Below, piece by piece: positions 7,791 to 38,271 of a stretch of 46,431 nucleotides of DNA. How positions within the stretch are numbered: the stretch's first letter is position 1; every line of letters begins with the position of its first letter. Made by a program: the position numbers and the translations under genes. The stretch lies in IMG/VR virus record IMGVR_UViG_3300044515_000009, positions 1 to 46,431 of that record. One strand, 5' to 3'. The stretch comes from a virus. The notes under the pieces were generated by a model that was not told where the DNA came from, searched no databases, and saw only the letters and a program-made list of their open reading frames with translations.

Positions 7791-8680
7791 TGTGGCCATT
7801 CAGCAAGCCGACCATGCCCGCGCTGCTGGCCAACCGTAACCAGCAGATCACCGACGAAATTGCCAAGCGCACCGTCGATCACAAGTTGGCGCTGATGACG
7901 CGCATGCCCGGTACCCATCTAAATCTTCTCGCCGACGGCGATTCGTGGTTCGACTACCCCCTCAATGGGTCGGTATTCGGGCCGCACACCGATGTGATTG
8001 CGCAGCTTCCCGGGGTCTGCGCGGTGCCGCCGACGATATTGAACCTGGCGCACTACGGATACACATCGACTCAAGAGATGGGCTACGGGCGCCAGCAGAT
8101 GATAGTCAAGGCGATCGAGGACAAGTCAAACGGCCATTTCGACGCGATATTGATGTCCGGCGGCGGAAACGACATCGCCGGAGACTCGCTGTGCATTTGG
8201 CTCAACGATGCCGCGGACGTCGGCAATGACCCGTGTAAGGCCATCAACCAGGCTCGGTTCGCCGATGCCGTGAGTATGGTGAAGGCGTCATACCTAGACC
8301 TGGTAGCGCTGCGAGACGACCTGTTGCCCGGCGCGCCGATCTTCGTGCACGATTATGACTTCGCTGTGCCGAGCGGGCGCGCGGCCAGCATCCTGGGCGT
8401 CTACAGCATGGGCCCATGGCTTAAGCCGTCGCTCGAGTACTGCGGCTGGACAGATCCCGTACATGGCGCGCTGATCGTCAAGAGCCTCATGATCAACTTC
8501 TCGAGCATGCTTGAGGACTTGGCCTCTCAACCAGAAAACAATCTGGTGCACGTGAGGACTCAGGGGACGACCGATGTCAGTACTTGGCCGAACGAGTTGC
8601 ATCCGGGGCCCGACGGGTTCCGCCAGGTAGCCACGATGTTTGCCGGTGCTCTCAGGGGTAAATTCCCGGGAATCGTCTGA
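7790..8680 (+). CDS. SGNH/GDSL-family hydrolase
   Basis: A 296-residue protein starting at ATG 7790 (1-base overlap with the previous stop). It shows the SGNH blocks: GDSW with nucleophile Ser52, G-G-G-N-D with Asn127 (oxyanion), and a C-terminal NELHP with His271. The position three before His, usually Asp, is Asn268. Known for the family: ester or acetyl-group hydrolysis, often on polysaccharides or peptidoglycan. There is no signal peptide. In a phage it may be a virion or intracellular esterase that modifies host surface glycans; this is inferred. A much longer upstream extension in the same frame is rejected because it overlaps the preceding gene. Confidence 0.75.
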   Translation: MWPFSKPTMPALLANRNQQITDEIAKRTVDHKLALMTRMPGTHLNLLADGDSWFDYPLNGSVFGPHTDVIAQLPGVCAVPPTILNLAHYGYTSTQEMGYGRQQMIVKAIEDKSNGHFDAILMSGGGNDIAGDSLCIWLNDAADVGNDPCKAINQARFADAVSMVKASYLDLVALRDDLLPGAPIFVHDYDFAVPSGRAASILGVYSMGPWLKPSLEYCGWTDPVHGALIVKSLMINFSSMLEDLASQPENNLVHVRTQGTTDVSTWPNELHPGPDGFRQVATMFAGALRGKFPGIV

Positions 8681-16211: not shown

Positions 16212-19200
16212 ATGGGGATGGTGGCCTTCGTCAAGCACCCGCCGCTGCACGAGCCATCGGTGCCGCAGAAGCATGCCGGCAACTATCGAAAGCGGAAGAT
16301 TGCGTGGCGCGGCATGGAGATTTCGATCGAAAACGAGGCGGCCAGCATGCGCCGCGGCACGAACCGGGACGGCAAGTCGTGGGAACAGAGGATGTCTCAC
16401 CCCTACGGCTATTTCCGTGGGACTGAGGGCGTAGACGGCGACCACGTCGACTGCTTCGTGGGCCCTAACTTAGACGCGCCGACGGTGTTCGTCGTGCACG
16501 CGCGCAAGATCAACCGGTGGGACGAGTACGACGAAGACAAGGTAATGGTCGGATTCAACAGCGCGGCCGAAGCCAAACAGGCGTTCCTGGACAATTATAG
16601 CGATCCGCGCTTCTTCGGCGACATGGTAGAGATGCCGGCAGATGAGTTCCTGACCAAGGTCAAAGCGACCAAGGACGCGCCGGCGATGATCAAGGCTCAG
16701 CAGCTCAGCCTATTCGATGCGCCGGTCATGGTGCAGGCGTCCGTCAAGAAAGACGGCACCGTCGTAAAGCCGTACGTGCGCGTCCAGAAGAAGGCGCACA
16801 AGCCGCCGGCTGAAACCAAACAGACCAAAAGTGAAACGGAACAGCCGAAAGCGGTAACAAAACCGCCAGAAACTGAAACGATTCAGCCCAAACCTGAAAC
16901 GCCTCCCCCGCGTATCGCCGACAAGCACCCAGACGAACCCCATAAATTCGGCGCGCAGGGCCAAAGCAAGGCGGAGCGCCGCCGGATCAATGCCGAGGTC
17001 GTAGCCCTGGTTACTGGAGGAAAAACCGAGTTCACGCCGGCCGACAAGGCGCTGATGGCTAAGTACAGCGGCAACGGCGGATGCGCGGACAGCCTGAACG
17101 AGTATTACACCGATCCGGACGTCGCCGAAGCGATGTGGGGAGCGCTTCGAAACCTTGGCTTCCGGAGCGGTACCGCGCTCGAGCCGTCGGCCGGGACCGG
17201 CGTATTCCTCCAGACGGCGCCGGCGGGCGTCAAGGTGACTGGAGTCGAGATTGACCCGATCAGCGCGAAGGTCGCGCAGCATCTACACGGTGACACCCAT
17301 GAAATTCAGAATTCCAGCCTCGAGCGATTTGCGAATAACGACGATCGTCAGTTCGACGTGGTTATTGGCAATGCGCCATTTGGCGATCGCGGGGCGACAG
17401 TCCGGGATGACAAGCCCGATGTGGCGCGCGCCGACACATATTTCATCGACACGGCCCTAGACAAGACGGCGCCCGGCGGACTGGTGGCGATGATCGTCAA
17501 CCACGGCACCATGGACAGCGCGCGCGACGAGGCTATGCGGCTGCGATTCGCGACGAAAGGCGAGTTCCTAGGTGCGATCCGCATGCCCAACACCGCGTTC
17601 GAGCATTCGCACACCGACGTGACGGCGGATATCTGGTTCTTCCGCAAGCGAAGCAACGAGGTCGCGGGCGCACTGGGGACGCTGAAGCGTGACCAACTGA
17701 CCGCGCTGGGCGTCGCGACTCCGGAGTACTTGCGCGGCGATTACTTCGAGGATGCCGGCAAGCCTAACGTGCTTGGTTCGGTAGAACCCGGGTGGCGCGC
17801 GAAGGCCAATATGGGTAACGACATCACGGTGTCTGGCTCAATGCAGGGCGTTCCGGAGGCGATCGCGGGATTCGAGGCGGAGACGCCGGCGCCCGTGGAC
17901 ATGCACGCGATCCTGGCGGCGGTCGGCGGCGACGAGATCGCCAAGCGGCGTGCACTGGGCGCGTCCATGTCGCGGCCGTACGAGAAAAATAACCGCGGGG
18001 ACACTCGGACGGTGGACGGGATCCAGTACATCCTAGAAGGCGAGCCGCTGCGCTGGCACCGCGTCGACGAGTTCATGCAGCAGCAGTCTATCATCGACGC
18101 GACCCCGCTGGCCGAGGGCATCGAGAGGCTGTTCCGCGGCTCCGCGGTGGACCGGCCTGCGCTCGAGGCGGGGATCCGCGCGTACATCGAAAAGCATGGC
18201 CTGCCGTCCAAGAACAAGATGCTCGAGCAGGCGGCGCACCAGGACCGCATGCTCTACCGGTTGATCGGCGCCGTGAAGCCCGACGGCACTCTATCCGATG
18301 CTGTGCTCGGCAAGGCGGCGACCGCGGTCATGGGTTCGCTCGATACCGCGGCCCAGACGCTGGCGGCCGAACACGAGGACGGCCTATTCGGCGTCGATGA
18401 GATCGCCGAGCGGGCGGGCAAGTCGGCCGAGGACGTCGAGGACGCCATGATGGCGCAGTCCACCTATGCCTACGCGGGCAATGGCAAGTGGACGACGATG
18501 GCAAACTACCTGTCGGGCGAGCTCTGGCCGAAGTTGGACGCCGTCAAGGCGGATGCAGCGCGCACCGACCTGGCGGCGGGGTATGGCGCCAAGTACGCGC
18601 TGCAGGAGCGCAAGCTCGAAGAGGCGATCTCCCCGCTGTCGCTGGAAGACGTCGATATAGCCGTGAACTACGGGTTCATCCCGCTCGACGTGGTGGCCGC
18701 GTACTTCAACAATCTGAACGCCAAGTCCGATGCCTCGTACTATCGCGATCAGAAGCCCATCTCGCTGCGCTTTGCAAACGCGACCTTCTATGTGGAAGGC
18801 GGTTATTTCCCCGGCAAGCAGTTGCTCGATAAGTACCTGAATCGCGACGGCGTCAAAGAGGACGAGCAGCCGGCCATCGACCAGATGAATGCGGATTTCA
18901 AGGCGTGGCTCTTGAGTTCTCGCTACCGCGACCAGGTGGAGGATCTGTACAACCGCAAGTTCCGCGGCTTTGTGGCGCGCGAGTTTTCCGATGCTACGTT
19001 CGAGATCCCCGGGATGAACACCGAGGGCCTGAAGGACTACCAGTACGGCGGCGTGCGCTGGGCGCTCAATAACCGCGGCGGTATCATCGCGGCCGACGTG
19101 GGACTCGGCAAGACGGTGCGCGCGCTCATGCTCGCGCGGCTCGCTAAGATCAACGGCCAGGCCAAGCAGCCGGTCATTGTGGTGCCCAAGTCGGTGCTCT

Positions 19201-22200
19201 CCAACTGGGCGAAGGAAGCCGAGCGCTGGTTCCCGGGATCAAAGGTGCTCATGATCGGCGAGACGCTGGACGCTAAGGGTAAGCCGAAGGCAGACAGTGC
19301 GGCCGAGCGCAATCGCAAGCTGCACGACATGACGCAGAATGCGTACGATTTTGTGTTCATCTCGCAACCGGCCTGGAATACCATCGACATCGATCCGGAC
19401 CTCAAGGACCGCTATTCTAGTGAGGATTTCTGGGCGCAGCGCAAGGATCAGAAGGAAGGCGGCCGCGAGAGCCGCAAGCGCCTCGAGGCGGCGAAGATGC
19501 GCCACGAGCAGAACGTGGCCGGCAAAGACTTCCAGAATAGATCCGACGCGGCCGACTTCGACAAGCTCGGCATTGACATGCTGATTATGGACGAAGCTCA
19601 CGCCTACAAGAACCTGTTCGGCGCGCGCAACCGGTTTGGCGAGAAGCCTAAGTTCCTGGGCGGCGGCGCGATGTCCAAGCGGGCGCTAGACACGACCATG
19701 AAGGCGCGCTGGGTGCGCGACAATAATGGCGGCCGGAACGTCTATTTCCTGACGGCGACACCGAGCAAGAACAGCCCGCTCGAAATCTACTCGATGCTGT
19801 CGTACGTCGCTCCGGACTCACTTGAGCAACTGGGAATCCGCAACAGCGAGGAGTTCATTGATCGCTTCTGCGAGTTCAAGAACGGCCAGATCCTGGGCCT
19901 CGACGGCACGATCGAGGAGGCGCTGTACACGTCCGGATTCAAGAACATGGACGAGCTGCGCGAGATCATGCGGCGAAACATTGACCGCAAGACGGCGGCG
20001 GACGTCGGTCTCAAGCTTCCGGAGCGCGAGGACTTCGAGCATGTGTTGCCGATGACGGCCCAGCAGGCGGCGGTCTATACGACATTGCGCGAGCAGATCG
20101 AGAATGCGGACACCGAGGGCGGCGCCGAATCTCACATATTCTCTGTGATGAGCCGCATGGGGAAGGCATCGCTGGACCTCGAGTTGCTGGACCCCGCTGC
20201 ATACGCTGGCGCGGAGAGCCCGAAGTACAACGAGGTCTCGAAGATAGCCGCCGCAAACACCAAGGACGGGGGGCAGATTGTCTTTTGCGAGGCGATCCAG
20301 TCGCACGACAAGATCAGGGCGGCGCTGGTAAAGGCCGGCATCCCGGCGGAGCAGGTCGTCATTTTCAACGCGCAGACGGCCCCGACGTCCGAGGATCGGC
20401 AGCGAATACAGGACGACTTCAACGCCGGCAAGACCAAGGTCGTCATCGGCAACAAGACTATGGAGGAGGGGGTAAACCTCCAAATGTACACGGCCGACAT
20501 TCACCACATGGACACGCCGTGGGAGCCCGCTACGCTGCAGCAGCGAAACGGCCGCGGCTTGCGCCAGGGAAATACCAATGCGGCGATCCGCATCCACAGC
20601 TACCACTCGGCCGGAACGTTCGACGGCTACCGCTACCAGACGGTTATGGCGAAAAAGGACTGGCAGCAACTGCTATGGAACGGCGGCAATCGCATAGAGA
20701 ACCTGGCGACGCCTAACGTACCGAGCCGCGATGAGATGCTGATCATGCTGTCGGCCGATCCGGATGCCGAGCGCGTGAAAATGGCGACCAACAAGGCGGC
20801 CGCCGAAGCCACCTATAAGACAGCCAAAACGACCGATGCCAGCAACGACTTCATTCGATTCCAGTCTATGAAGATGAACCTGGCCGCGCTCAAGAACAAG
20901 GAAACGGCCGCCGGGCGCCGCCTCAAGCAGAACATGGGACTGCTCCACGCCAAACTGAAGGCCAACGAGCATTTCTCGCAAAAGGCCGCGCTCGACTCCG
21001 AGACGCCGGTGCTGATACACCCCTCGACGGGCGCCGTGGTGCGCGCCGGCCAGGGCGTCAAGATGAAGGGCGAACAGTTCGTCGTCACGGGCGTCGATAC
21101 GAAGGACAACGAGGTCACGTTGCGGCGCTGGGCCCAAGTATCGGGCCGCGGCGCGATGACCGTGAAGCTGTCCGACATGGGCGCCGAATCTAGCGTCCAC
21201 GAGCATGACGCGGCAGCCGAGGAGGCGGAGGTCAATCGCCAGGTGGAGGCTGATGCCGGCGCGCAGCTCGAGGCGGCCAAGGGTCTCAAGGATATCGCGG
21301 CGCTGCATTCCTCGGTGATCGCCAAGAACTACGCGCGGCTGCAGGAGCGCTTGCACGCGGGCGCGAAGGACTACACGGCCACGTTCCCCTACGGCGACGT
21401 TGCGATGATCCACCCGTCCGGCAAGGTTGTGACAGCGTCGAGTTACGCGCACAAGGATCTCCAGGACCACGATTACGTGCTGCCGACGCCTGAGCATCGC
21501 GAGAAGATGATCCGCGCCTATGGCGATATGGAGCGCTCTAAGAAGTTCCACATGAAGACCGACACGTATGGTCGCGGCCGCAACAAGTCGTACAAGACCA
21601 GCGAAACGATGGAAGCGCGCTACAACGACAGCTATAGCACGCATCACAATCCGATCGGCGCCGCAGGCAAGGAGATCATGGGGGCGAACTTCCAGGAGGA
21701 GGCGCACCAGGCGTTCGAGGCCGAGCAGTTCGAGAAGATGCAGCACGCCAAGAACATGGATGACGCGATGCGCGATGCAGCGCCCACGATCCAGGTGGAT
21801 TACAACGGCGTCAAGTGGCCGAAAAAGACGCTCGCGATTCTCTTCATCGTCGCCAAGCACACGGGGAAGCTCGACGCGCCAATCGCGAATCAGATACCGA
21901 ACGGCGAGACGGTATACGGCCGCGCATCGCCGCTGCTCGACCGGCGGCTGTTCAATGTGCGCAAGTTCCACCATAGCGAGTCAGTGCATGGCCTGAGAAC
22001 GCAGGACGCGCTGCAGAAGCTAGCCGAGGCCAACGGCCATTACGACCTGGCGGCCGCGATAGCCATTCAGGGGCGGCCGCCGGCGGAGGCAATGACCCAC
22101 ATCCTAGATATGCCGCTTGAGCGCGACGGCGTGATCGACGGCATCACGCACCTCGTCGAGAAGCATCCCGACATCGCGAGCAAGCCGGTGTCTGAGTTCA

Positions 22201-22298
22201 TCGACTCCTACGCGATCAAGCAAAAGTTTGGCCACGGCTACGAAACGCTTAAAATGAGCGAACTGCCCGACGCGCTGCGCCCGAAAGAGGCCGCATGA
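16212..22298 (+). CDS. giant polyvalent protein: InPase-like, adenine methylase, SNF2 helicase (DarB-like)
   Basis: A 2028-residue protein. Residues ~30-165 (HPYGYFRGTEGVDGDHVDC, then YDEDKVMVGF) match the inorganic-pyrophosphatase-like domain of phage and plasmid polyvalent proteins. A Pro/Lys/Glu-rich linker follows. Residues ~275-435 are an adenine-specific methylase: motif I EPSAGTG (323-329) and a NAPFG variant of NPPF/Y (about 386-390). Residues ~935-1480 are an SNF2-type helicase: ADVGLGKT (961-968), DEAH (1126-1129), and R-N-G-R-G-L-R-Q-G (motif VI, about 1445). P1 DarB, a virion antirestriction protein, has the same methylase-helicase logic. Packaging in the capsid and protection of incoming DNA are inferred. 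The remainder is unrecognised apart from an SH3-like segment near 1600. Confidence 0.85.
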   Translation: MGMVAFVKHPPLHEPSVPQKHAGNYRKRKIAWRGMEISIENEAASMRRGTNRDGKSWEQRMSHPYGYFRGTEGVDGDHVDCFVGPNLDAPTVFVVHARKINRWDEYDEDKVMVGFNSAAEAKQAFLDNYSDPRFFGDMVEMPADEFLTKVKATKDAPAMIKAQQLSLFDAPVMVQASVKKDGTVVKPYVRVQKKAHKPPAETKQTKSETEQPKAVTKPPETETIQPKPETPPPRIADKHPDEPHKFGAQGQSKAERRRINAEVVALVTGGKTEFTPADKALMAKYSGNGGCADSLNEYYTDPDVAEAMWGALRNLGFRSGTALEPSAGTGVFLQTAPAGVKVTGVEIDPISAKVAQHLHGDTHEIQNSSLERFANNDDRQFDVVIGNAPFGDRGATVRDDKPDVARADTYFIDTALDKTAPGGLVAMIVNHGTMDSARDEAMRLRFATKGEFLGAIRMPNTAFEHSHTDVTADIWFFRKRSNEVAGALGTLKRDQLTALGVATPEYLRGDYFEDAGKPNVLGSVEPGWRAKANMGNDITVSGSMQGVPEAIAGFEAETPAPVDMHAILAAVGGDEIAKRRALGASMSRPYEKNNRGDTRTVDGIQYILEGEPLRWHRVDEFMQQQSIIDATPLAEGIERLFRGSAVDRPALEAGIRAYIEKHGLPSKNKMLEQAAHQDRMLYRLIGAVKPDGTLSDAVLGKAATAVMGSLDTAAQTLAAEHEDGLFGVDEIAERAGKSAEDVEDAMMAQSTYAYAGNGKWTTMANYLSGELWPKLDAVKADAARTDLAAGYGAKYALQERKLEEAISPLSLEDVDIAVNYGFIPLDVVAAYFNNLNAKSDASYYRDQKPISLRFANATFYVEGGYFPGKQLLDKYLNRDGVKEDEQPAIDQMNADFKAWLLSSRYRDQVEDLYNRKFRGFVAREFSDATFEIPGMNTEGLKDYQYGGVRWALNNRGGIIAADVGLGKTVRALMLARLAKINGQAKQPVIVVPKSVLSNWAKEAERWFPGSKVLMIGETLDAKGKPKADSAAERNRKLHDMTQNAYDFVFISQPAWNTIDIDPDLKDRYSSEDFWAQRKDQKEGGRESRKRLEAAKMRHEQNVAGKDFQNRSDAADFDKLGIDMLIMDEAHAYKNLFGARNRFGEKPKFLGGGAMSKRALDTTMKARWVRDNNGGRNVYFLTATPSKNSPLEIYSMLSYVAPDSLEQLGIRNSEEFIDRFCEFKNGQILGLDGTIEEALYTSGFKNMDELREIMRRNIDRKTAADVGLKLPEREDFEHVLPMTAQQAAVYTTLREQIENADTEGGAESHIFSVMSRMGKASLDLELLDPAAYAGAESPKYNEVSKIAAANTKDGGQIVFCEAIQSHDKIRAALVKAGIPAEQVVIFNAQTAPTSEDRQRIQDDFNAGKTKVVIGNKTMEEGVNLQMYTADIHHMDTPWEPATLQQRNGRGLRQGNTNAAIRIHSYHSAGTFDGYRYQTVMAKKDWQQLLWNGGNRIENLATPNVPSRDEMLIMLSADPDAERVKMATNKAAAEATYKTAKTTDASNDFIRFQSMKMNLAALKNKETAAGRRLKQNMGLLHAKLKANEHFSQKAALDSETPVLIHPSTGAVVRAGQGVKMKGEQFVVTGVDTKDNEVTLRRWAQVSGRGAMTVKLSDMGAESSVHEHDAAAEEAEVNRQVEADAGAQLEAAKGLKDIAALHSSVIAKNYARLQERLHAGAKDYTATFPYGDVAMIHPSGKVVTASSYAHKDLQDHDYVLPTPEHREKMIRAYGDMERSKKFHMKTDTYGRGRNKSYKTSETMEARYNDSYSTHHNPIGAAGKEIMGANFQEEAHQAFEAEQFEKMQHAKNMDDAMRDAAPTIQVDYNGVKWPKKTLAILFIVAKHTGKLDAPIANQIPNGETVYGRASPLLDRRLFNVRKFHHSESVHGLRTQDALQKLAEANGHYDLAAAIAIQGRPPAEAMTHILDMPLERDGVIDGITHLVEKHPDIASKPVSEFIDSYAIKQKFGHGYETLKMSELPDALRPKEAA

Positions 22299-22621
22299 TC
22301 GATACCAATGTACTCGCCGCCAACACGCTGCAATTGCTGCAAGCCGATCCGTCGCGATATCGCAATTTCGGCGTGTACTGGTATCTGATCAAGGCGGTGC
22401 TAAAGAAGTACTACACCCAGGACAATCTGTTCCTGCTCGGCGACTACGTCGACAAGACGGTGACAGATCGGCTGCCGGCCGGCCAGTCGCTCGAGGAGGC
22501 GCTGAATGCGGCCGTGGTCGAGTACCAGCACAACGCTACCTATAACCTGGGCCGCGCAACCGTGACAGATCCCGATGGCGAGGAATTCATCATCATGGAT
22601 CAGGATGCGGGTGGCCTATGA
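22295..22621 (+). CDS. hypothetical protein between the two polyvalent genes
   Basis: A 108-residue protein overlapping both neighbours (ATGA at 22295 and at 22618), so the three are one coupled unit. It is mostly helical, with V-Y-W-Y-L-I-K-A-V-L-K-K-Y-Y near residue 27 and an acidic C-terminus. A small helical protein of this kind is often linked to large polyvalent genes; function unknown. Confidence 0.55.
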   Translation: MIDTNVLAANTLQLLQADPSRYRNFGVYWYLIKAVLKKYYTQDNLFLLGDYVDKTVTDRLPAGQSLEEALNAAVVEYQHNATYNLGRATVTDPDGEEFIIMDQDAGGL

Positions 22622-25600
22622 TTATCTTCCTCAAGGCTTCATCGATACCGGCCGGCGCCCGCTGGATCACCATCCACCCGCACGGGCCCGATGAAAAGGG
22701 ACAGCCGCTGCTGATCCAGCCTAATCCCGATGGGAGCGCGCACGTGGTCGGCGGCGCCGGTGGCAGCCTGAACTACCTCAAGCTCAAAAAGGTGCGGTCG
22801 GAGTCCGACTATCAGAAAGAGGCTGAGGAGAAGCGCCAGCAGAAGAGTACCGAGCGAAAAGAGCAGACCAAGCGCGACAAGGCGGCCGGCATTCACGAGT
22901 CTAAGCAGCAGGCCAAGGCGAACGTGCGAGTGCAACGGCTCAGCCACGAGAGCGATTTCGTCAAAACGGTGGCTGACAAACTTGGCTGGGACAAGGCGGC
23001 GACCGAGTTCCCAGAGGACAAGTACAAGGATTTGAGCGAGCCAGCGGTCAACAAGCTGCGCGAGCAGTTTCACCGCAACGTGCTGAAGCAGGCCAAGGAT
23101 GCTGTTGTCGAGGTGCGCCAGCACTTGCTGAAGGATGCCGATGCGCGCATGACCGCAGGCCTCGCGTCCGTGCCGGTCACCAGCACCAGCGATGACGTCG
23201 TGTCCGTACAGGACTTGGACCCGATCCCGACGAACACGACGGGGCTGGGGTTCTCGACCAAGTACGCGGCGCGCGCCGAGAAACAGGGTATGACGCCAGA
23301 AGCGGTCGGCGAGGAGAAGGCGGAGCGCCAGGCGAAGATGAGCGATCGCCAGCGCGAGTCCGTCATCAAGCGCGGCAAACTGGCGGATGCCATCGGCAAA
23401 GAGTTGGAGTCGGTCCGGGATCCGGCGCCCGATATAAAGTCGAACTTGGGCGACCTCAGCAAGGCTATGGAGTTGCTGAAGGCCGAGAAGAAGCTGAAAC
23501 AGGTGCACAAGAAGTCTCGCGATGCCATGGCGGAGATCAATGACGCCAAGGCCGAACCCAAGGCCTACGTGCTGGCAGCCGATGAGGAAGCCAGCGAGGA
23601 TGCTGTAAAAGAGGATTTGAGCAATGACCTGCGAACCATTAAGACACTGGCATTTCTGTCGGAGTTCCATAAAATTGGAGGCGCGGATAGCCTTGGTAAG
23701 TACGTTGGCATCGGTGCTTTCAATAGTGTCAATGCACTCGCGCTGGCCGTCAGCGGCGACGCACTGGTTGATCGCAGTGTCGTGGACGTGCTTGGGATTG
23801 CTGGTGCTGCGCAAGTTCTTGCCAGGCGCATCCATGCTGATCTTTCGGCCGCTAATGCGCAGCGGGTGTCGGAGGGCATGCAAGACTTCCACCTAAACGA
23901 GTACATGAAGACCAGCCAGGACGCCATGGACCGCGTCAAGGCTCTGACCGACCAGGCGAAGGCGATGGAGGTCACCGACCTCTCGACGGCGACCGATATC
24001 AAGGCGGCGCAGGAACTGAACCACCGGCATGCCGAATTGATCGGCGACGCACAGCGCATCATCGGCGAAGCCCTCGGCGAGCTCGAAGCCAACGCTGCGC
24101 TGACGCTGGCGCTCAAGCGGCCCGCAGACAAGCCGTTTCAGGTATCGCTCGGCAAGACGTCGTTTGAAACCGCGCTGACGCAGGCGCGTGCGATCGGCCT
24201 GCAGCGCGGCGACTACCAGATTGAGAACACCGCCGGCAACACATTCCTGACGGTGACGCCAGAAGGCATGTCGCGGCTCGCCAAGCCGGTCAACAAGGGC
24301 GATATCGAGCAGGTTCACCGCAACCTGTCCATCATCAATGGCGACCAGGACGAGGATGACTGGTTGCCGGAAGGGTTCGCGCGTCGTCCGGATCTCGTCA
24401 TGTCGGTGAAGCCGGGCGTTGCCGATCGGCTGGCCAAGCCATTCGCCGGCGGCGAGGACCTGGGGCAGTCTCTGCGCGACTACATCGGCGGCCGCGCGGC
24501 CGATGGCGACAACCCCGCCGACATCCTGGCGGACATCCAATCCGCTGATTTCGTGAACAAGGCCGGGCCTGGGCGCGCCGAGGCATACCGGGAGGCGCTC
24601 GACGCTGTCGCGCCGCTGCACGGCAAGGACGGCCAGATGCTGCGCGCCGCCGACATGGCGCCAGCCTTCGACCAATACGCGGATTCATTTGTCGACGGCC
24701 ACTACAAGGGTGAGCGGTCCGCCATCAACCGCCAGCAGTTCGCTGTCGATCAGAAGGCCGGCGATGCGCTGCACCGCGCGCTTGCTGCCACGCCGGCGGG
24801 CATCTCGGCCTACAAGCCCATTGGCGAGCTCGATCACCGCGACCAGCGCGCGCTGCGCCAGTTCTTTGCCGAGCACGTGGCCAAGGATAGTCCTGAGACG
24901 CAGGCGTTGCGCACCGACCTCGAGGAGCACGGCAAGAATGAGCCGGAGCGCAAGGTCGAGGATATGTTCGGCGACTCGACCGACAATCCCGACTGGACCG
25001 ATTGGCACAACCGCCGCGAGGAGATGGCGACCAAGGTCAACTCTGGCTCCCTGACCTGGGACAAATACATCGAGGCAATGCGCAGCCCAGAGAAGGCGTA
25101 CGAGTCGATGCAGGACCTGGTGCGATCGCACGTCAATGAGACCTTTGCGAAGACGTACAACACGCTCAACCCGGGGGCGCCGATCAAGACGGGGCGCGCG
25201 CCGATCCGCAATAACTTGGCGCATCTAGACATGATCGACCCCGCGGCGCGCGAGAAGCGCCAAGAGGCGGACCGCCAGCGTATCGATGCGCTGCGCGAGC
25301 GCGCGGCCGGCCGGTACGCCGCAGGCTCAGTATCAGACAAACTGGATGCGGCGCGCGCGCAAGAGGACGCATTCAATCAGTCGCAAATGGGCTTCTTTTC
25401 ATCCGAGGAATCTACGGAGACAAACGATAAGCCGCTGGGCGGCGATGAGCGGCATACGCTGGGTCACGTGGCGGAGCGCCAGATCTCCGGCATGATGGGC
25501 GTCTACGGCCGCGGGTTCGATGCCAAGAAGAAACTCGACATTTTCCAGCCGTCTATGAGCGGCGGCAAGAATGCGCCGCGCCAGCGCCTAATCAAGATGA

Positions 25601-27105
25601 TGGAGGCGAATAAGCGCGTCGTGGCGGCATTTGGTACCGGCGCCGGCAAGACTGCGATCTCATTGGGTGCATTCTCGCATCTGCACAGCAAGGGGAAGAT
25701 AAAGCGAGGCCTGTTTCTTGTGCCGTCCGTCGTCCAGGGCCAGTTCGGCGGCGCGGCGCTCCAATTCCTCGAGCCCGGCAAGTTCAATTGGCACATCAAG
25801 CCTGGCGCCAGCCAGGACGAGCGCATCGCCGCCTACAAGGACCCCCAGTACCATTTTTCTGCCATGACCCACGCGGCGTTCACCGCAGACATGCTGCACC
25901 TAGGCGCGAAGTCCGAAGGCATTCCAGAAGCCGATATGCGCGATCGTGTCAACGCCATGGACGCCACCGACAGGCGGGCGTGGATGCACGGCCTAATGGA
26001 GCGCGAGGGTATCAATTTCGACTATCTCAACGTCGACGAGGGTCAGGCTACGCTGAACAGGCAGGGCAAGCAGAACTCGTCCCTGGCCAACGTAGTCGAC
26101 GCGCTGTCCGCACACACCCCCTACTATATGATGGCGTCCGCAGACCCCGTCAAGAATGACACCAGCGAGATTTTCGACGTCATGTCGAAGATGGACCCCG
26201 AGCGCTACCGGGACCGCGATGCGTTCATGCGCCGCTATGGCGCCGACACGGTCGGCAGCAAGGACGCGCTCCGCCGCGAGATGGCGCGCTATCTCTACCC
26301 CTCCAAGATAGATCCGGACGTCAAGGTTGACCGACAGGTGAGCCGCACCAAGCTCTCCGAGGGACAAAAGCTATCCCTGAAGGAACTCGACAAGAACATG
26401 GGCGCCATGTCTATGGCCAAGATGGAGGGACGCGTCGACGTCGATGCGGCGCGCGCGGTATCGCCGGCTAGCTTCGATGGAGTGGCTGAGTCGGACCACG
26501 ATAAAATAGCTCGAGATCTGCAGAAAAACACCGGAATACTGAAGTCGGCGGCCATTCAGCGAGTCATCAATACGCATGCCGACAACCCGGGCGCCGACGA
26601 CGTTGTCAAGACGGCCGCGGCGCGCCAGGGGAAGCCCGGCATCGTCTTCGCGCACTCGCTGGCCGCCGTCAAGCTGCTCGGCGCTCGACTGGGAGCGGCA
26701 GGCCATAAGGTCATCACGATCACCGGCGCCGACTCAGCGGCCGACAAGGACCGAAAGCGCGATGAGTTTCAGCGGGGCGGTAGCATCCTTGTGGCAAGCG
26801 ATGCGGCCGCCGTCGGCATGAACGCTCAGGCCGGGCAATGGGCATATCAGTACGATACCCCTCAGACTGCGATGCTTCACGCGCAGCGCGAGGGGCGCAT
26901 CAACCGGACCGGCCAGCATAATAGCATCGAGTTGATCGACAACGTGCCGGACCATCCGGAGATCCACAAGGCGCGCGACCGGCTGAGCAAGAAGTACGGC
27001 CTGCGCGAGATCATGACGACGCCGCTAGACGCATTGGACGAGTCGGGAATTGCCTACTATTTGAAGCAGCGGGAGATAGCCGGTGAGCGAACAGCAGATC
27101 AATAA
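22618..27105 (+). CDS. giant polyvalent protein with SNF2-like helicase domain
   Basis: A 1495-residue protein. The N-terminal RWITIHPHGPDEKGQPLLI and VVGGAGGSLNYLKL stretch is a domain found at the start of many phage polyvalent and portal-linked proteins. A long charged helical region (about 60-950) follows. Residues ~970-1480 form a superfamily-2 helicase: Walker A GTGAGKT (1007-1013); Walker B with D-E-G-Q instead of DEAH (about 1140-1143); T-G-A-D-S-A-A-D-K; and QREGRINRTGQ (motif VI, from 1423). With the 2028-residue gene it probably acts on DNA or a complex injected with it; the actual job is not known. The final 23 bases overlap the next gene. Confidence 0.8.
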   Translation: MIIFLKASSIPAGARWITIHPHGPDEKGQPLLIQPNPDGSAHVVGGAGGSLNYLKLKKVRSESDYQKEAEEKRQQKSTERKEQTKRDKAAGIHESKQQAKANVRVQRLSHESDFVKTVADKLGWDKAATEFPEDKYKDLSEPAVNKLREQFHRNVLKQAKDAVVEVRQHLLKDADARMTAGLASVPVTSTSDDVVSVQDLDPIPTNTTGLGFSTKYAARAEKQGMTPEAVGEEKAERQAKMSDRQRESVIKRGKLADAIGKELESVRDPAPDIKSNLGDLSKAMELLKAEKKLKQVHKKSRDAMAEINDAKAEPKAYVLAADEEASEDAVKEDLSNDLRTIKTLAFLSEFHKIGGADSLGKYVGIGAFNSVNALALAVSGDALVDRSVVDVLGIAGAAQVLARRIHADLSAANAQRVSEGMQDFHLNEYMKTSQDAMDRVKALTDQAKAMEVTDLSTATDIKAAQELNHRHAELIGDAQRIIGEALGELEANAALTLALKRPADKPFQVSLGKTSFETALTQARAIGLQRGDYQIENTAGNTFLTVTPEGMSRLAKPVNKGDIEQVHRNLSIINGDQDEDDWLPEGFARRPDLVMSVKPGVADRLAKPFAGGEDLGQSLRDYIGGRAADGDNPADILADIQSADFVNKAGPGRAEAYREALDAVAPLHGKDGQMLRAADMAPAFDQYADSFVDGHYKGERSAINRQQFAVDQKAGDALHRALAATPAGISAYKPIGELDHRDQRALRQFFAEHVAKDSPETQALRTDLEEHGKNEPERKVEDMFGDSTDNPDWTDWHNRREEMATKVNSGSLTWDKYIEAMRSPEKAYESMQDLVRSHVNETFAKTYNTLNPGAPIKTGRAPIRNNLAHLDMIDPAAREKRQEADRQRIDALRERAAGRYAAGSVSDKLDAARAQEDAFNQSQMGFFSSEESTETNDKPLGGDERHTLGHVAERQISGMMGVYGRGFDAKKKLDIFQPSMSGGKNAPRQRLIKMMEANKRVVAAFGTGAGKTAISLGAFSHLHSKGKIKRGLFLVPSVVQGQFGGAALQFLEPGKFNWHIKPGASQDERIAAYKDPQYHFSAMTHAAFTADMLHLGAKSEGIPEADMRDRVNAMDATDRRAWMHGLMEREGINFDYLNVDEGQATLNRQGKQNSSLANVVDALSAHTPYYMMASADPVKNDTSEIFDVMSKMDPERYRDRDAFMRRYGADTVGSKDALRREMARYLYPSKIDPDVKVDRQVSRTKLSEGQKLSLKELDKNMGAMSMAKMEGRVDVDAARAVSPASFDGVAESDHDKIARDLQKNTGILKSAAIQRVINTHADNPGADDVVKTAAARQGKPGIVFAHSLAAVKLLGARLGAAGHKVITITGADSAADKDRKRDEFQRGGSILVASDAAAVGMNAQAGQWAYQYDTPQTAMLHAQREGRINRTGQHNSIELIDNVPDHPEIHKARDRLSKKYGLREIMTTPLDALDESGIAYYLKQREIAGERTADQ

Positions 27106-27355: not shown

Positions 27356-28261
27356 ATGTCAGCGGCCGTAGATATAACCGGAAAGAAGTTTGGCCGTCTC
27401 ACGGCTTTAAAATTCACAGGCGAGATACGCAGAGGAAATCGCGTATGGATGTGCAAATGTGACTGCGGCACCTCAATCAAGGTGGTCGTGGCCAGCCTGA
27501 TCCGCAGTAATACCAAATCGTGCGGCTGTATTCATCGCGAGCACATAAAACGGCTGGGCCATAAAAATGCGGCAAACCTTGCAGGTAGTAAATTCGGCCG
27601 GCTCACGGCCGTCAAGTTTTCCGGGCGAAAGATAGGCACCTTTCGAGTGTGGGATTGCGTATGTGACTGCGGAAAGCAGACTGAAGTGCTATCCGCCAAT
27701 CTGACCAGCGGCAATTCTCAATCATGCGGCTGCCTGAATAAGGAACGGCTATCTCAATCGCGGCGAGTCGATATCGCCGGTCGTGTCTTCGGAAAACTGA
27801 CTGCCATTGAATGCGTAGCGGGAGACAAAAAAGGAGAGCGATTCTGGCGCGCCTCATGTTTGTGCGGTGGCGAGAAGGTAGTCCAAGCTTGTCGGCTAAC
27901 GACCGGCGCGATCATCTCCTGCGGATGCGCTACCGGAGGCCCGATTGCCAATCCCTACATGCCGGAACACGCGCTAGAAAAAGGCCGGATAGCAGCGAAC
28001 GAAAGGCGCGCCAGAAAGATGAAGGCAGGCGGCTCTTTCGACGAGTTTGATATTGATCTCTTGTACGAAGAGCAGGGTGGCCGCTGCCCGTACTGCCGCA
28101 CTGAACTCGGTGATCACTTTCAGCGAGATCACATAGTGGCGCTTATAAATGGCGGTTCAAACGATATTGGTAATATCCAACTTCTTGATCCGCGCTGCCA
28201 TTTCCTAAAGACAGCAATGGATCGACGGGAAGCCGCCGCGCGGAGGCGCAACACCCCGTAG
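27356..28261 (+). CDS. HNH homing-type endonuclease with three zinc-ribbon-like repeats
   Basis: A 301-residue protein. Three repeats of about 65 residues each start G-x-F-G-(R/K)-L-T-A and contain paired cysteines (CKCDCG...SCGC; CVCDCG...SCGC; CLCGG...SCGC). Such repeats are DNA-binding modules in phage-borne HNH enzymes. The C-terminus has CPYC, RDHIVAL and a GN-rich segment (about residues 244-295), the HNH nuclease: the first His and following Asn/His coordinate metal. It sits alone between the helicase and head genes, which fits an invading homing endonuclease. Codon use is less GC-biased than the flanking giant genes. Confidence 0.8.
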   Translation: MSAAVDITGKKFGRLTALKFTGEIRRGNRVWMCKCDCGTSIKVVVASLIRSNTKSCGCIHREHIKRLGHKNAANLAGSKFGRLTAVKFSGRKIGTFRVWDCVCDCGKQTEVLSANLTSGNSQSCGCLNKERLSQSRRVDIAGRVFGKLTAIECVAGDKKGERFWRASCLCGGEKVVQACRLTTGAIISCGCATGGPIANPYMPEHALEKGRIAANERRARKMKAGGSFDEFDIDLLYEEQGGRCPYCRTELGDHFQRDHIVALINGGSNDIGNIQLLDPRCHFLKTAMDRREAAARRRNTP

Positions 28262-32440: not shown

Positions 32441-32480
32441 GAGCGGTCGGTTGATTTAGGGTCTGTTTCGGAGAAAACCC

Positions 32481-33005
32481 ATGTTGTCGATATTTCGCAA
32501 GTCACTTATCAGCGTCGCTGCCGGCCTACTGATAGCGTCGGCGTCTTTGGTGCCTCAGTCGGCGCACGCCGGTGCGGCGTCGAATTTCTTGGTCAACAAG
32601 ATGCTCGACTTTGTCTTGCGCGGACAGGCCTATACGCCGCCGACGACGGTATTCGTAGGGCTAGCCACTACCACGGGAAGCCAGGCGTCTTGTGGAACGG
32701 AGGTCACAGGCGGCTCGTATGCGCGTGTAGCCGTCACCTCTAGCCTGACCAACTGGGCCGGAACCCAAGGCGCTACTACCACGGCTATATCGAGCGGCAC
32801 CAGCGGCGCCACGTCGAATAACGCGACGATCACGTTTCCGGCGCCAACAGCTAATTGGGGAACGGTCACTGAGTTCTGCGTGTTCGACGCATCTACCGCA
32901 GGTAATCTGCTTTTTCGTGCTGTCTTGTCCTCTGGTCAGACGATAAATAATGGTGCCGCCGCCCCGAGTTTTTCTATATCTGCGATGACGTGGACGATTA
33001 ACTAG
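32481..33005 (+). CDS. fibre-type protein with a Sec-type signal peptide
   Basis: A 174-residue protein. Residues 1-30 (MLSIFRKSLISVAAGLLIAS...AHA) are a clear signal peptide with AHA as the cleavage site. The mature part (VFVGLATTTG, GTEVTGGSYARV, WGTVTEFCVFDA) follows a widespread short phage fibre/baseplate-type domain that usually begins without a signal. Ribosome site GGAGA. The signal and leader resemble those of the gene at 35039-36265 at the DNA level, suggesting duplication of that cassette. Confidence 0.65.
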   Translation: MLSIFRKSLISVAAGLLIASASLVPQSAHAGAASNFLVNKMLDFVLRGQAYTPPTTVFVGLATTTGSQASCGTEVTGGSYARVAVTSSLTNWAGTQGATTTAISSGTSGATSNNATITFPAPTANWGTVTEFCVFDASTAGNLLFRAVLSSGQTINNGAAAPSFSISAMTWTIN

Positions 33006-33026
33006 GCTATTGCCTGGCGATCATGC

Positions 33027-35027
33027 ATGAGACCACCGTCACGGTTCGAGATATCGATCCAGACGCCGTCAAATGACTTGCTATTCCATGGGCGGTATCC
33101 ACACGGTGATGCTCCGGTAAATGCCCTATCGGGAGCAGCATTAGATAACACGTCATCTTCTGGATCGCTAAGCGTCGGAGGAGGCGGTGCTCTTGCAGTA
33201 GCAACCTCATCTGCTGCACCCCTACCAAGGGCGACTAACGGTGGAATGTTCTTTTTCAAGATGCAGTCCGCCGGCGGCACAGGTATAGGAGAGGTTTGGT
33301 CGTTGGTGTCTAGCACAGGGTCGTCTCCGTATCAGATGACCACCGACGGATGGCTATACGTAGCGCCAACGGTTAATGAAGGACCCAATACGCTAATAGT
33401 CCAGGTAAAGGATTCGGCTAACGCCGTAGCCCAGGCGACATTCACGCATACGATTGACTCCGTGTTGGCAATCATGGGCACGGCCATTAGCGCATCGTCT
33501 CAGCCTCTACCCGCCGCGATGGTCGGTAACAAGTACTTCCATCAGATGAGCGGCGCAGGCGGGTCCGGCGCGGGATTCGCATGGGCAGATCCAGCCGTGA
33601 CGCTACCGCCTGGATTGGCCATATCGAACTCCGGCGCGATCACCGGCACGCCGACAGGAACGGCTGGAAACGTGACTGGTATCTCCCTACACCTCGCTGA
33701 TAACGGAGGCCACGCGGCCTTGGCGACGTTCAGCATGCAGGTCATGGCGAACGCCAATGTCGCGCGCCCATCGTACAATTCAATCACCGCCAATGGCTTC
33801 TTCGTCCTCAACGGCAAGCTGTACGACCCAAATGGGGCGCCGTTCTACATGCGGGGATTTAACCGCAATCATTTCGATAATTCATCTCAGCCTGGACTGA
33901 GTCTGTCGGGGGCGAACACCTGCCGTTTCTTCATGTTCACCATGGGGGCAGGGGGAACCGCAGCTTCTGTTTACGCCAACGTCGCCAGCACGCAGCACAT
34001 CGCGTTCAAAGAGTTGCCCATCATCACGGCAGCGCTGTTTCCTGGCGGCACGGTGGCGACTAGCGGTAGCGCAGACACGACTCAGTTCAGCAATCTAGTC
34101 AATTGGTGGGTATCTAACGTTTCTGCTTTCGCGTCTATCATGAATTCGATCTCAGTAAATATTGCGAACGAGTGGGGTCCGTCGAACAGCACTATATGGC
34201 GCGATTCGTATATCAGCGCCATTTCGTCAATGCGAACGGCTGGGTACACGTGCCCTATAGTCATCGATGCTGGCGGATTTGGGCAGGACGAAGCAGATCT
34301 GACGAACTTCGCCCCCGCAGTGTTTGCTAGCGACCCGCTGAAGAATATCGTCTTCTCGTTTCATGCCTATGGTGGCACGACGACATTCGCGGGCACGATA
34401 GCGAGTATTGCCAAGGGCACTTCGACCACGATTACGCTGAATAGCGGCGCGGCAACACATCCGTTTGCGCCAACATTCAACGGTAGTAACAACAGCTTCT
34501 CCGGAATTCCCGAGATGTCCATCGTCGGCGCCCAGGGCATGACGCAGATTAACGGCAACATACCGACTAGCCAGAACGTTGGTGGGTCGCCTGGCGCATG
34601 GACGATCACGGCTAACGTCAACAGCACAGGGTTTGGGTCCTATACCGGTGGCGGCACCATATTCGACTTTAATCATTACTCGCAGCGCATCCCGCGTCTC
34701 GCCTCGCTGGCGTCTAGTACTGGCGCCGTTGTCATGGTTGGGGAGTTTGGCCCCGGAAAGAACATAGGTCCTAGCCCGACGCTAGTAAGTCCGGGAGAGA
34801 TAGTTGTTGCTTGCGAGGCAAGCGGCGTACCGTGGCTAGCTTGGGCCTGGGACGACAACGACATGTCCGGCGGCATGACATCAGAGAACTGGTTCGGAGC
34901 GACGCTGACGGCTGGCGTCTACACAAAGCCATCGGACCTAACATTCAACGGACAAGAAGAGACATTGAATCCCGAACATGGCGTGACCTCACTATCGGCT
35001 CCTGCATCTTTCTTTTTGGGTCCGTAA
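33027..35027 (+). CDS. GH5-like glycosidase tail fibre with putative-Ig domains
   Basis: A 666-residue protein. Residues ~70-235 contain two strand-rich modules, the second with LPPGLAISNSGAITGTPTG, the mark of the He_PIG putative-Ig domain. Residues ~255-620 resemble glycoside hydrolase family 5: GKLYDPNGAPFYMRGFNRN opens the barrel; NIANEWGPS provides the acid/base Glu382; S-F-H-A-Y-G lies near 446; VGEFGPG gives nucleophile Glu573. Trp after the first Glu is a known variation of the NEP motif. GH5 enzymes cleave beta-glucans or mannans, so this fibre may digest a surface polysaccharide. There is no signal peptide here, unlike the flanking genes. Confidence 0.7.
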   Translation: MRPPSRFEISIQTPSNDLLFHGRYPHGDAPVNALSGAALDNTSSSGSLSVGGGGALAVATSSAAPLPRATNGGMFFFKMQSAGGTGIGEVWSLVSSTGSSPYQMTTDGWLYVAPTVNEGPNTLIVQVKDSANAVAQATFTHTIDSVLAIMGTAISASSQPLPAAMVGNKYFHQMSGAGGSGAGFAWADPAVTLPPGLAISNSGAITGTPTGTAGNVTGISLHLADNGGHAALATFSMQVMANANVARPSYNSITANGFFVLNGKLYDPNGAPFYMRGFNRNHFDNSSQPGLSLSGANTCRFFMFTMGAGGTAASVYANVASTQHIAFKELPIITAALFPGGTVATSGSADTTQFSNLVNWWVSNVSAFASIMNSISVNIANEWGPSNSTIWRDSYISAISSMRTAGYTCPIVIDAGGFGQDEADLTNFAPAVFASDPLKNIVFSFHAYGGTTTFAGTIASIAKGTSTTITLNSGAATHPFAPTFNGSNNSFSGIPEMSIVGAQGMTQINGNIPTSQNVGGSPGAWTITANVNSTGFGSYTGGGTIFDFNHYSQRIPRLASLASSTGAVVMVGEFGPGKNIGPSPTLVSPGEIVVACEASGVPWLAWAWDDNDMSGGMTSENWFGATLTAGVYTKPSDLTFNGQEETLNPEHGVTSLSAPASFFLGP

Positions 35028-35038
35028 CGGAGAACCCC

Positions 35039-36265
35039 ATGTTTTCTATACGTAAGTCATTTATCAGCGTAGCTGTCGGTCTACTGATCGCGCTGGACGG
35101 TTTGGTACCTACGGCGGCAATAGCTTCGATTGCACTAGTTCAGGCGGAAGGCTCATCTAACGGCACTAACCCGTCGGTGACGTTCACGTCAGCATGCGCA
35201 ATTGGTCAGCCAATAATTGCTATTCTTGGCCAGGTTGGAGATTCTCCAACGATCACCGTATCCGATAACCTAAACACGGGTAACTATACTCTGCTAGGCA
35301 CGTTTTTCGATTCCACTAATCATGTAACCCAGGCGGTTTTCATGATTAAGTGTAATGCGGCTGGCGTACCTACCGTCTCTACATCCATAGGCAATGGCGA
35401 TACAGGTAAGCTAATAGCCGGAATATTCAATGGTTTCCTTGGAACTCCGACATTAGACGCGTCTATCGTCACCGACTTCGGTCCTATCACGGGTAGCGTT
35501 AATACGTTCAGTCCAATTACTAGCAATTTCACCAATGAACTTATGCTACTAGCCTCCAGTAACGGAGATTTTATTTCAACCATCAGTGGTGGGTGGACAG
35601 ACTTAACGGGATCATCTGGTGCTGCATTTTTCAAATTGGTTACCTCGGCAGGAAGTTCCGCAAATTTCACCGCAAACATGGGAGCATCGACTTGGATCGA
35701 TGGAGTCCTGGTCGGGATACATGATGTCGTGTCTGGTGCCGCGCTTGCGGGATCAGCCTCCGACTCAACTTCGGCCACTGCCGCACTTTCTACAACTGCA
35801 GCGCCATTTGCGCCGATCTTTCTAGACAATGCCACGCACGTCAATGGATCCGATCAGATCGGCATGGGAAATGGCATCCAGGGCAGCAACACAGGCGATT
35901 TGGCGCCAGTGGCCTTCCAGAAGATAAAGCAGTGGGCAATCGATGCAAATACCAATTTCTCGAAGATCTTCCGAGTGAGAAGCGTTATGACTCCGCTCAC
36001 CGGGTTCTCTATCTCTGTGGTTGGCGGAATCACAGACCAGGTGCTAAATCCCGCTGGTACGCTAGCCACTGGGGCCATCGTGTTTCCGCCAAACCCAGGC
36101 GACCAACAGCCATTTATTCTAAAATCTTCGCAGACGGTAACTGCCTTCTCGGCTACCACTTCTGACGGGACATCCGCGAATGGCGTTCCGGGAACATTGC
36201 CCGCGAACGTCGCTCTGAAATGGATATTCGTGGCACCGCTTAATACCTGGTTCCGCGAGCAGTAG
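35039..36265 (+). CDS. secreted or virion beta-rich protein with signal peptide
   Basis: A 408-residue protein. ATG 35039 is chosen because residues 1-29 (MFSIRKSFISVAVGLLIALD...AIA) form a signal peptide almost the same as that at 32481; a longer in-frame start at 34811 lies inside the GH5 gene. The mature protein is Thr/Ser/Gly/Asn-rich with many strand segments, including a central I-D-G-V-L-V-G-I-H-D-V. A short SDSTSATAALSTTAA segment recalls the repeats in the next gene. No catalytic motif seen. Confidence 0.6.
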   Translation: MFSIRKSFISVAVGLLIALDGLVPTAAIASIALVQAEGSSNGTNPSVTFTSACAIGQPIIAILGQVGDSPTITVSDNLNTGNYTLLGTFFDSTNHVTQAVFMIKCNAAGVPTVSTSIGNGDTGKLIAGIFNGFLGTPTLDASIVTDFGPITGSVNTFSPITSNFTNELMLLASSNGDFISTISGGWTDLTGSSGAAFFKLVTSAGSSANFTANMGASTWIDGVLVGIHDVVSGAALAGSASDSTSATAALSTTAAPFAPIFLDNATHVNGSDQIGMGNGIQGSNTGDLAPVAFQKIKQWAIDANTNFSKIFRVRSVMTPLTGFSISVVGGITDQVLNPAGTLATGAIVFPPNPGDQQPFILKSSQTVTAFSATTSDGTSANGVPGTLPANVALKWIFVAPLNTWFREQ

Positions 36266-36273
36266 GCGCCCTC

Positions 36274-37905
36274 ATGGCTTTATGGACGGTCGATTCAACA
36301 TCCGTAACCACGGACTCAACCGTTGCGACGACTGACGGGTTTAATTCGTCTGGCACTTCCCTATCCGGCGCAGCCGCCGACTCGACAAGTGCCACTGGCA
36401 CGCTGATCAATTTCTCCAGCGTCGTGCTAACCGCGCCGCTATATACGGGGCCCGGCGGTCTATTCGATCCTAACCTCGTGTGGCCATTTTCGACGCCTAC
36501 GGTCGGTAGCCGTATCGACTTCGATCCGACGATTATCACGGTATTGCCGAATGGCGAGATAAACGCTACCAGCAACGTCAACGTTAAGGCTGAGATTCAG
36601 TTCAACGATGGCACTAATGTCAATGAAGTAGACATTTTTATAACCGGAGGACTCGTCGGGTATGCCAGTGATACGACGTCTGCAACGGGAACATTGTCAT
36701 CTCAGCCGGGGATCGCGTCTGTTGGTGAGTCTCACGACACTGCGTCAGGAACCGGCGTCCCAAGCAATCCAGCCATCGCGTCTATCGTAGAATCAAGTGA
36801 TACGGTATCGGCAAGCGGCTCTACGTCGACGGCCGGCGCTGGGTCACCAACTGAATCGACTGATATCGTTGCCGGGTCAGGCGTCAGCCAATTAGTTGGC
36901 TCATCGTCTATTGCAGAGTCTTCTGACCACGTGTTGTCCGTAGGGTCCGCTATCAATGTGGGCACCTCGTCTATCGCCGAAGGAAGCGACTCGGCATTAG
37001 CCTCTGGATCTACGTCAGCCGGTGGCTCTGCCTCCATAGCTGAGTCCGCTGACACGGCATCTGGATCTGGATCTGTATCTCTGCACGGGATAGGGTCCGC
37101 CATAGAGGTACCCGACCAGTCGTCGGCAACCGGGGCAACGTCTACGTCCGGGTCCGCCGCCCTTATCGAGTCTTCCGACGTGGTTTCTGGCGGAATATTG
37201 ACGGCCGTCTCCGGTGTCCTATCGGTCGTTGAGTCCGTGGATTCCGTCGTGGCTTCTGGATCGTCGGTAAATTCAGGATCATCGGGAGTCACGGAATCGG
37301 CGGATACTACGGTGGCCATGGGCTCGATAACGATCGTGGGCGTATCCACTATTGTCGAGTCGTCGGATTCGACGTCGGCCGCTGGCAGCGCGTCTACCTC
37401 CGGGTCGGCTGCCGTGACTGAGAGTCCAGATGTGGCGACGTCGCATGGATTTTCAAGCACGTCAGGATCGGCGGTAATTGCGGAGGGATCAGACCAAGTA
37501 TCGGCGATCGCATCGCTTTCAACTACCGGTAGCGGCGGCGTTACTGAGTCCGCGGACATATCGTCAGGACTTGGATTGGTTTTCCTTCGGGGCATTTCCC
37601 TTATCGTGGAAGGCAATGATGCGGTGACCGCCACTGGAGGCGTCAAGACATCGGGAAATTCGTCTATAGTCGAATCAGCCGACTTGGTTATGGCGTCCGC
37701 CGGTGAGTTTGGGTTCGGATCTGCGTCGATCCTTGAGAAGGCCGACTTAGCTATGGCGACAGGTACCATGCCATTACCTGTCGGGCGCACGGTTGTGGCT
37801 CAATCATTCTCCAGATACGTCGGCGCCGATTTCCAGAGGGGCATTGATTGCGACTCATTCAACCGAGTCGATGTCGTGCCTAAGACCTCCAATCAGCTTT
37901 TCTGA
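36274..37905 (+). CDS. repeat protein with tandem 21-residue units
   Basis: A 543-residue protein. An N-terminal globular part (about 1-145) is followed by 17 consecutive 21-residue units (residues ~147-503) of the type xSxIxESxDxxxAxGSxxxxG, and a short C-terminal segment (VGRTVVAQSFSRYVG...). Similar ESADxxSASG-type units occur in phage fibre/adhesin-like proteins. The tandem geometry suggests an extended stalk of stacked strands. The Ser/Thr/Gly richness and absence of Cys fit a rigid virion filament. Function unknown beyond a structural role. Confidence 0.65.
   Translation: MALWTVDSTSVTTDSTVATTDGFNSSGTSLSGAAADSTSATGTLINFSSVVLTAPLYTGPGGLFDPNLVWPFSTPTVGSRIDFDPTIITVLPNGEINATSNVNVKAEIQFNDGTNVNEVDIFITGGLVGYASDTTSATGTLSSQPGIASVGESHDTASGTGVPSNPAIASIVESSDTVSASGSTSTAGAGSPTESTDIVAGSGVSQLVGSSSIAESSDHVLSVGSAINVGTSSIAEGSDSALASGSTSAGGSASIAESADTASGSGSVSLHGIGSAIEVPDQSSATGATSTSGSAALIESSDVVSGGILTAVSGVLSVVESVDSVVASGSSVNSGSSGVTESADTTVAMGSITIVGVSTIVESSDSTSAAGSASTSGSAAVTESPDVATSHGFSSTSGSAVIAEGSDQVSAIASLSTTGSGGVTESADISSGLGLVFLRGISLIVEGNDAVTATGGVKTSGNSSIVESADLVMASAGEFGFGSASILEKADLAMATGTMPLPVGRTVVAQSFSRYVGADFQRGIDCDSFNRVDVVPKTSNQLF
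36712..37782 (+). repeat. 17 tandem 63-bp units (21-residue protein repeat)
   Basis: The repeat period is exactly 63 bp throughout, starting at the codon for Ile in I-A-S-V-G-E-S. Each unit keeps E at position 6, D at position 9 and mostly Gly at the end. At DNA level the copies differ widely by synonymous and conservative changes, so they are old and not currently identical copies. A partial unit precedes the array, around 36660. Confidence 0.75.
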
Positions 37906-37917: not shown

Positions 37918-38271
37918 ATGACCTCAGTTGCCGTTATCAGCCAAACCGGAGATAGGTTTTCGCCACTTGACCCTGCTGGGATGGAGTTCTTCTATTGGGA
38001 CTTCACGCGGGAATTGAAACCCGGAGAAACCATAGTGTCTGCCGTGGTTGTGTCCAATAGTGCTATCGATGGATCGGACAATTCGGCCGCAATGGTGTCT
38101 GGATCGTCTATCGTTATGAATGGTAACGTAGTCAAGCAGATGATTTCCGGGGCAGGCGGGGCATCTGGTGTTCCCTATGTACTAAAGGCTAAGGCGACGA
38201 CAAACATTGGTCAGGTACTGCCGCTGAGCGGGATACTAAACATAGGGCCCGAGTTCGGGGTAGTTACGTGA
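37918..38271 (+). CDS. small head-tail or fibre-linked beta protein
   Basis: A 117-residue protein starting at ATG 37918, which overlaps the next gene (GTGA at 38268). The pattern F-F-Y-W-D-F-T-R-E-L-K-P-G-E-T-I-V-S-A and G-A-G-G-A-S-G-V-P-Y-V-L-K-A-K-A is found in small Ig-like proteins common in phage structural operons (often next to connectors). Function not established. Confidence 0.55.
   Translation: MTSVAVISQTGDRFSPLDPAGMEFFYWDFTRELKPGETIVSAVVVSNSAIDGSDNSAAMVSGSSIVMNGNVVKQMISGAGGASGVPYVLKAKATTNIGQVLPLSGILNIGPEFGVVT

Follow-up and report, generated by a model that had tools for sequence, protein, structure and literature searches.

The cytoplasm is assumed to be the place where tailed phages synthesise, fold and assemble their virion proteins. 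No earlier description of an exported virion fibre of a tailed phage was found in the open-access literature, and in a survey of phage DGR target proteins the absence of signal peptides was counted as support for a phage origin (PMC6199706). Several described systems resemble parts of the locus analysed here. Fiber I (gp80) of Ralstonia phage GP4 (PF23140; PDB 8JOU) has the same domain as the fibre gene termed gene A below and belongs to a similar module with a gp77-type adaptor, but GP4 gp80 starts directly at the domain, whereas the gene A product is distinguished by its predicted signal peptide and its pair of cysteines. Phage proteins that leave the cytoplasm are represented by Llp of phage T5, which also contains a disulfide, and by the T1-type Cor (PMC9586334); these are small lipoproteins with a cysteine at position +1, while the products of gene A and of a second gene, C, are fibre domains with no cysteine at +1. 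An export signal precedes a fold of the phage-fibre or tailspike type in the MAT fibres of Bdellovibrio (PMC10769870) and in WceF of Pantoea (PMC7949094), but both are encoded by bacterial genes outside a phage virion cluster, their domains are unrelated, and WceF is exported via Tat. Disulfides in structural proteins of a tailed phage are known from Agrobacterium phage Milano (PMC10491603), where the accessible part of the report describes many bonds, largely inter-chain, and mentions no export signal.

The DNA studied (hereafter the window) is a 46431-bp IMG/VR virus record that contains terminase, portal, major head protein and tail sheath genes. Its head protein is ~45% identical to those of Bordetella phage PHB04 and similar 90-95 kb phages, the annotations of which include tail sheath and baseplate genes. 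Two very large genes (16212-22298 and 22618-27105) are located upstream of the head genes, and the PHB04 genes in their place are annotated as a DNA methyltransferase and a helicase. The stretch 27356-28261, which lies after the large helicase-like gene and ahead of the head genes, encodes Cys-rich repeats followed by an HNH-like motif and looks like a homing endonuclease insertion. In the early part, 6417-6899 encodes a predicted lipoprotein (LSGC lipobox), perhaps related to lysis. All the genes and leader features of the window described in the following section lie on the + strand.

A duplicated leader in the fibre module

Two stretches of the window, 32455-32563 at gene A (32481-33005) and 35014-35118 at gene C (35039-36265), were found by blastn to be 75.2% identical over 109 nt (E 6.8e-15). 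Each comprises a ribosome site and most of the signal-peptide codons; the copied unit consists of ~25 nt upstream of the start, including the Shine-Dalgarno site (CGGAG), plus ~29 codons. No third copy was found in the window, the next best match having an E value of 0.26. The local score of 55 compares with a mean of 13.5 (SD 2.7) and a maximum of 26 in 2000 first-order (dinucleotide-based) randomisations, which rules out a chance likeness. The relatedness of the two leaders at the DNA level, proposed in the initial annotation, is therefore confirmed (75%, E 7e-15). The leader peptides are MLSIFRKSLISVAAGLLIASASLVPQSAHA, followed by G, in gene A and MFSIRKSFISVAVGLLIALDGLVPTAAIA, followed by S, in gene C. 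The aligned codons comprise 11 that are unchanged between the copies, 8 with synonymous and 10 with non-synonymous differences, which gives dN 0.29 and dS 0.61 (0.12 and 0.54 in the first 19 codons); within this small sample, the peptide is thus more conserved than the DNA. The second copy spans the end and the stop codon of the intervening gene B and supplies the last residues of its product, an overlap from which it probably arrived after the module was in place.

Both leaders were scored with a simple rule set of this analysis rather than with SignalP, on mechanically assigned gene starts. The predicted Sec signal peptide of gene A covers residues 1-30 (32481-32570; AHA/G, score 8.45) and that of gene C residues 1-29 (35039-35125; AIA/S, score 7.75). 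Under these rules each has an n-region with a charge of +2, a hydrophobic core and an AxA motif, as in substrates of Sec and signal peptidase I, so the signal peptides suspected earlier were borne out by the prediction. The lipobox cysteine at +1 that marks lipoproteins of the Llp/Cor type was not found, since this position is Gly31 in A and Ser30 in C.

Mature gene A (32571-33005) was assigned to the Gp80 family of fibres by its match to PF23140, its AlphaFold model and Foldseek. The PF23140 match of the gene product (E 2.9e-38; 131.6 bits against a cut-off of 27) covers positions 1-127 of the 128 in the profile, and the domain starts at residue 31-32, directly after the predicted cleavage site. 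The AlphaFold model of the mature protein has a pLDDT of 95, and its best solved match (Foldseek rank 1, E 5e-7, TM 0.75/0.79) was 8JOU, 'Fiber I and fiber-tail-adaptor of phage GP4', residue 2 of which aligns to residue 31 of the gene A product. These comparisons demonstrate that the leader was duplicated, that it has the character of a predicted signal peptide and that it is joined exactly to the fibre domain. Only one Gp80 gene was detected in the window by HMM search; hence, the form with the leader (hereafter leadered) seems to replace the cytoplasmic form there. No enzymatic domain was found in A or C by domain and family searches, and the earlier suggestion of soluble enzymes or decoys received no support: gene A encodes a structural fibre domain at the position customary for a virion gene, and in several leadered modules the fibre-tail adaptor gene is its neighbour.

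Gene B (33027-35027) encodes a fibre of the GH5 (cellulase) family (PF00150, E 2e-11) and, as the initial annotation had stated, lacks a signal peptide. The mature proteins behind the common leader do differ, A and C being unrelated. Mature C (35126-36265) is fibre-like and contains exactly two cysteines (53 and 105). The gene had no confident Pfam or PHROGs family and matched no solved structure, and its AlphaFold model is poor (pLDDT 45). When searched against IMG/VR as a single sequence it gave no relative, and with an alignment only one locus, L002, was retrieved, where the gene at the same place is 39% identical. L002 is another phage contig with the same gene order: A, B (with the same N-terminus and a different body), C and D. 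Gene D (36274-37905), a repeat-rich protein of the fibre module, has no signal peptide; its N-terminal part is 61% identical in L002. Its conserved N-terminal domain is followed by a short Ser/Asp-rich unit repeated many times in degenerate form. The module continues with a fibre-tail adaptor of the GP4 gp77 family (37918-38271; PF23148, E 8.5e-7), also without a signal peptide. As for gene B, its 55 N-terminal amino acids are 64% identical to those of the L002 fibre gene at 6548-8125 and the remainder has been exchanged, the body being GH5 in the window and another domain in L002.

Leaders and cysteine pairs among the relatives

In 16 of the first 17 relatives of gene A, the Gp80 domain begins within a few residues of the start codon and no signal peptide is present; the other one (L017) has Gp80 copies in tandem, and the match falls on an internal copy. 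The annotated starts of BcepMigl, ACP17, MEP401 and cta39025 lie 4-5 codons before the match. Some apparent extensions were discarded: in CRP-4 the match apparently reaching into the leader proved to be read-through of an intergenic region containing stops, and the proteins of Stenotrophomonas phages Marzo and Yut3, which looked extended, are annotated from near the domain start and fail the signal-peptide rules. In L002 the leader of gene A is related to that of the window (AEA/G) and the signal peptide of gene C is unrelated to it. Leaders of the signal-peptide type were also found in 17 of 79 further IMG/VR loci, mostly with no visible similarity to one another, and their cleavage motif adjoins the point at which leaderless relatives begin. 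In GTDB genomes the rule set detected a leader on 25 of 68 unique Gp80 domains, and a 26th case (L147) had been missed by it owing to a GTG start and a long core. As background, 10 of the 921 genes examined in the surroundings of leaderless loci had such a leader.

The hosts were Betaproteobacteria in 21 of the 26 leadered genome loci. Leadered Gp80 genes are found in normal virion regions (e.g. L045, L117, L130 and L053), the L045 cluster comprising portal, protease, head protein, Gp80, fibres and tail, and also in apparently Mu-like prophages (L109, L132 and L025); the gene names at these loci were read from the sequences in this analysis. The cluster containing the adaptor family occurs beside 8 leadered and 6 leaderless loci. 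Among the neighbours of leadered loci, there was no clear enrichment of Sec signals beyond gene C (window and L002) and lipoproteins. Small predicted lipoproteins are encoded directly or shortly downstream of the leadered Gp80 gene in L059 (3327-3719), L143 (7172-7543), L147 (8424-8798) and L070 (6688-7062); they might be functional partners or lipoproteins of the lysis region.

In gene A the cysteines are even in number and positionally paired, as looked for in a periplasmic disulfide: Cys71 (codon 32691-32693) and Cys133 (codon 32877-32879). Exactly one of three alternative cysteine pairs was present in 44 of 45 unique leadered Gp80 proteins and in 0 of 89 leaderless ones. The pairs are 66-146 (31 proteins), 71-133 (8, including the window and L002) and 65-131 (5), and an unpaired cysteine at any of these six positions was seen in none of the leadered and leaderless proteins. 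The association was obtained both in IMG/VR and phage records (18/19 leadered versus 0/66 leaderless; Fisher 1.6e-17) and in GTDB genomes (26/26 versus 0/23; Fisher 1.7e-14), with p-values that ignore relatedness and are inflated by the clustering in Betaproteobacteria. The one exception is L034, which has a leader and no pair; gene C of L002, too, has a leader and no cysteine. The coupling between the predicted leader and a cysteine pair is thus established statistically. That three geometries lead to the same outcome is hard to explain without a disulfide acquired in an oxidising compartment.

On a tree built without the Cys columns, in which 22 of 130 branches are strongly supported, the signal peptide changed at least 10 times and the cysteine pair at least 9 times. 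The strongly supported branches force only 3 switches, and these are concordant (3/3) in most pairings, which is below significance. Overall, the comparison of more than 130 relatives shows that the fibre proteins repeatedly gained or lost the predicted export signal together with the cysteine pair.

In a locus without leaders, L024, the counterpart of gene A is 77% identical to it, which no relative but that of L002 approaches, and has neither leader nor cysteine. The gene C of L024 is leaderless as well: its first residue corresponds in the alignment to the first mature residue of the window's gene C, and it has one cysteine against two in the latter. Since A and C are both leaderless in L024 and both leadered in L002, the two genes appear to switch jointly. 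The A-C pair of L024 is flanked by resolvase-like genes (351-1532 and 7117-7878) on a 9.6-kb contig, the viral nature of which is uncertain.

The window contains an additional leadered gene of this kind at 12688-14718 (+ strand). Its product resembles a tailspike and, according to the rule set, begins with a signal peptide unrelated to those of A and C; the start codon is not certain, there being no clear ribosome site at 12688. A phage-type N-terminal motif (TTISNLPVATTLTGTE) is located behind the signal peptide. A relative in L185 (2710-4857) is 67% identical over residues 79-676 and has a different N-terminal region, again behind another unrelated signal peptide. The protein is probably likewise a fibre or spike protein that acquired a Sec signal peptide.

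Probable export and possible role of the leadered fibres

We favour, with a probability of about 0.6, the interpretation that A and C are genuine fibre proteins rerouted via Sec that dock on the virion at lysis. Their precursors would be made late in infection and exported by Sec to the periplasm, where signal peptidase I would cut exactly at the N-terminus with which the cytoplasmic relatives start. Gene A and its leadered relatives would then be locked by a disulfide that would form reliably only in the oxidising periplasm. At lysis, the exported fibres would meet the particle assembled in the cytoplasm and dock via the gp77-type adaptor, yielding a virion with its outermost fibre parts finished outside the cytoplasm.

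As judged from sequence comparison, the leadered fibre proteins are probably exported from the cytoplasm and oxidised. Disulfides alone do not prove export, since the Milano virion has many of them and such bonds can also arise in virions once the cell has lysed, with no export involved (PMC10491603); the argument for export comes from the coupling of the cysteine pair with the leader. The initial annotation had left two options, export or the use of the leader as a modular expression unit. The former is well supported by leaders that are cleanly prepended at the mature start and replaced by unrelated signal peptides, and by the coupling with cysteine pairs. As to the latter, ribosome site and signal peptide were indeed copied as one piece, which would suit a pure expression element whose peptide stays in place or is trimmed in the cytoplasm with no role in export. 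The leaders of the relatives, however, share little or no sequence and yet keep the charge, the hydrophobic core and the AxA motif at the domain border, and they are tightly coupled to cysteine pairs; such persistence of signal-peptide character through drift, together with this coupling, indicates an export signal rather than an expression aid alone, and makes the pure expression element very improbable. We give hardly any credence to an uncleaved anchor in the virion or membrane either: a hydrophobic N-terminus ahead of a fibre domain is what it predicts, but the AxA motif coincides with the start of the leaderless relatives in nearly all leadered cases, and both these relatives and GP4 fibre I exist without a hydrophobic leader.

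The main rival accepts the same evidence of export and disulfides and differs in the destination: the exported proteins would have no virion role and would attach, in the periplasm or at the outer membrane, to the receptor that the phage itself uses or to newly made surface polysaccharide, resulting in superinfection exclusion or in progeny escaping entrapment. It has precedents in T5 Llp, an exported, disulfide-bonded exclusion protein (PMC9586334), and in WceF, which is an exported tailspike-like polysaccharide hydrolase of bacteria (PMC7949094), and it agrees with the core fibre partners not being exported. Nevertheless, we consider it unlikely: the leadered Gp80 occupies the slot of the virion copy and no further copy was seen in its vicinity, several modules keep their adaptor genes, and domain and family searches gave no enzymatic domain in A or C. 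For the fibre proteins to dock at lysis, as we prefer, the complex would have to join after lysis, because signal peptides are absent from B, D and the adaptor. We infer this docking from gene position and the kept adaptor gene, as the leadered form takes the place of the ordinary fibre among the virion genes and the adaptor genes remain.

For annotation and expression work, the cytoplasmic production of leadered fibres may yield mis-processed, reduced protein. We tentatively propose that tailed phages, mainly of Betaproteobacteria, may have repeatedly evolved a two-compartment assembly in which Sec-exported outer fibres oxidised in the periplasm are attached at lysis. If the export is real, either fibres can be completed in the periplasm and added to the particle at lysis, or the fibre fold has found a second use in proteins that act on the envelope during infection.
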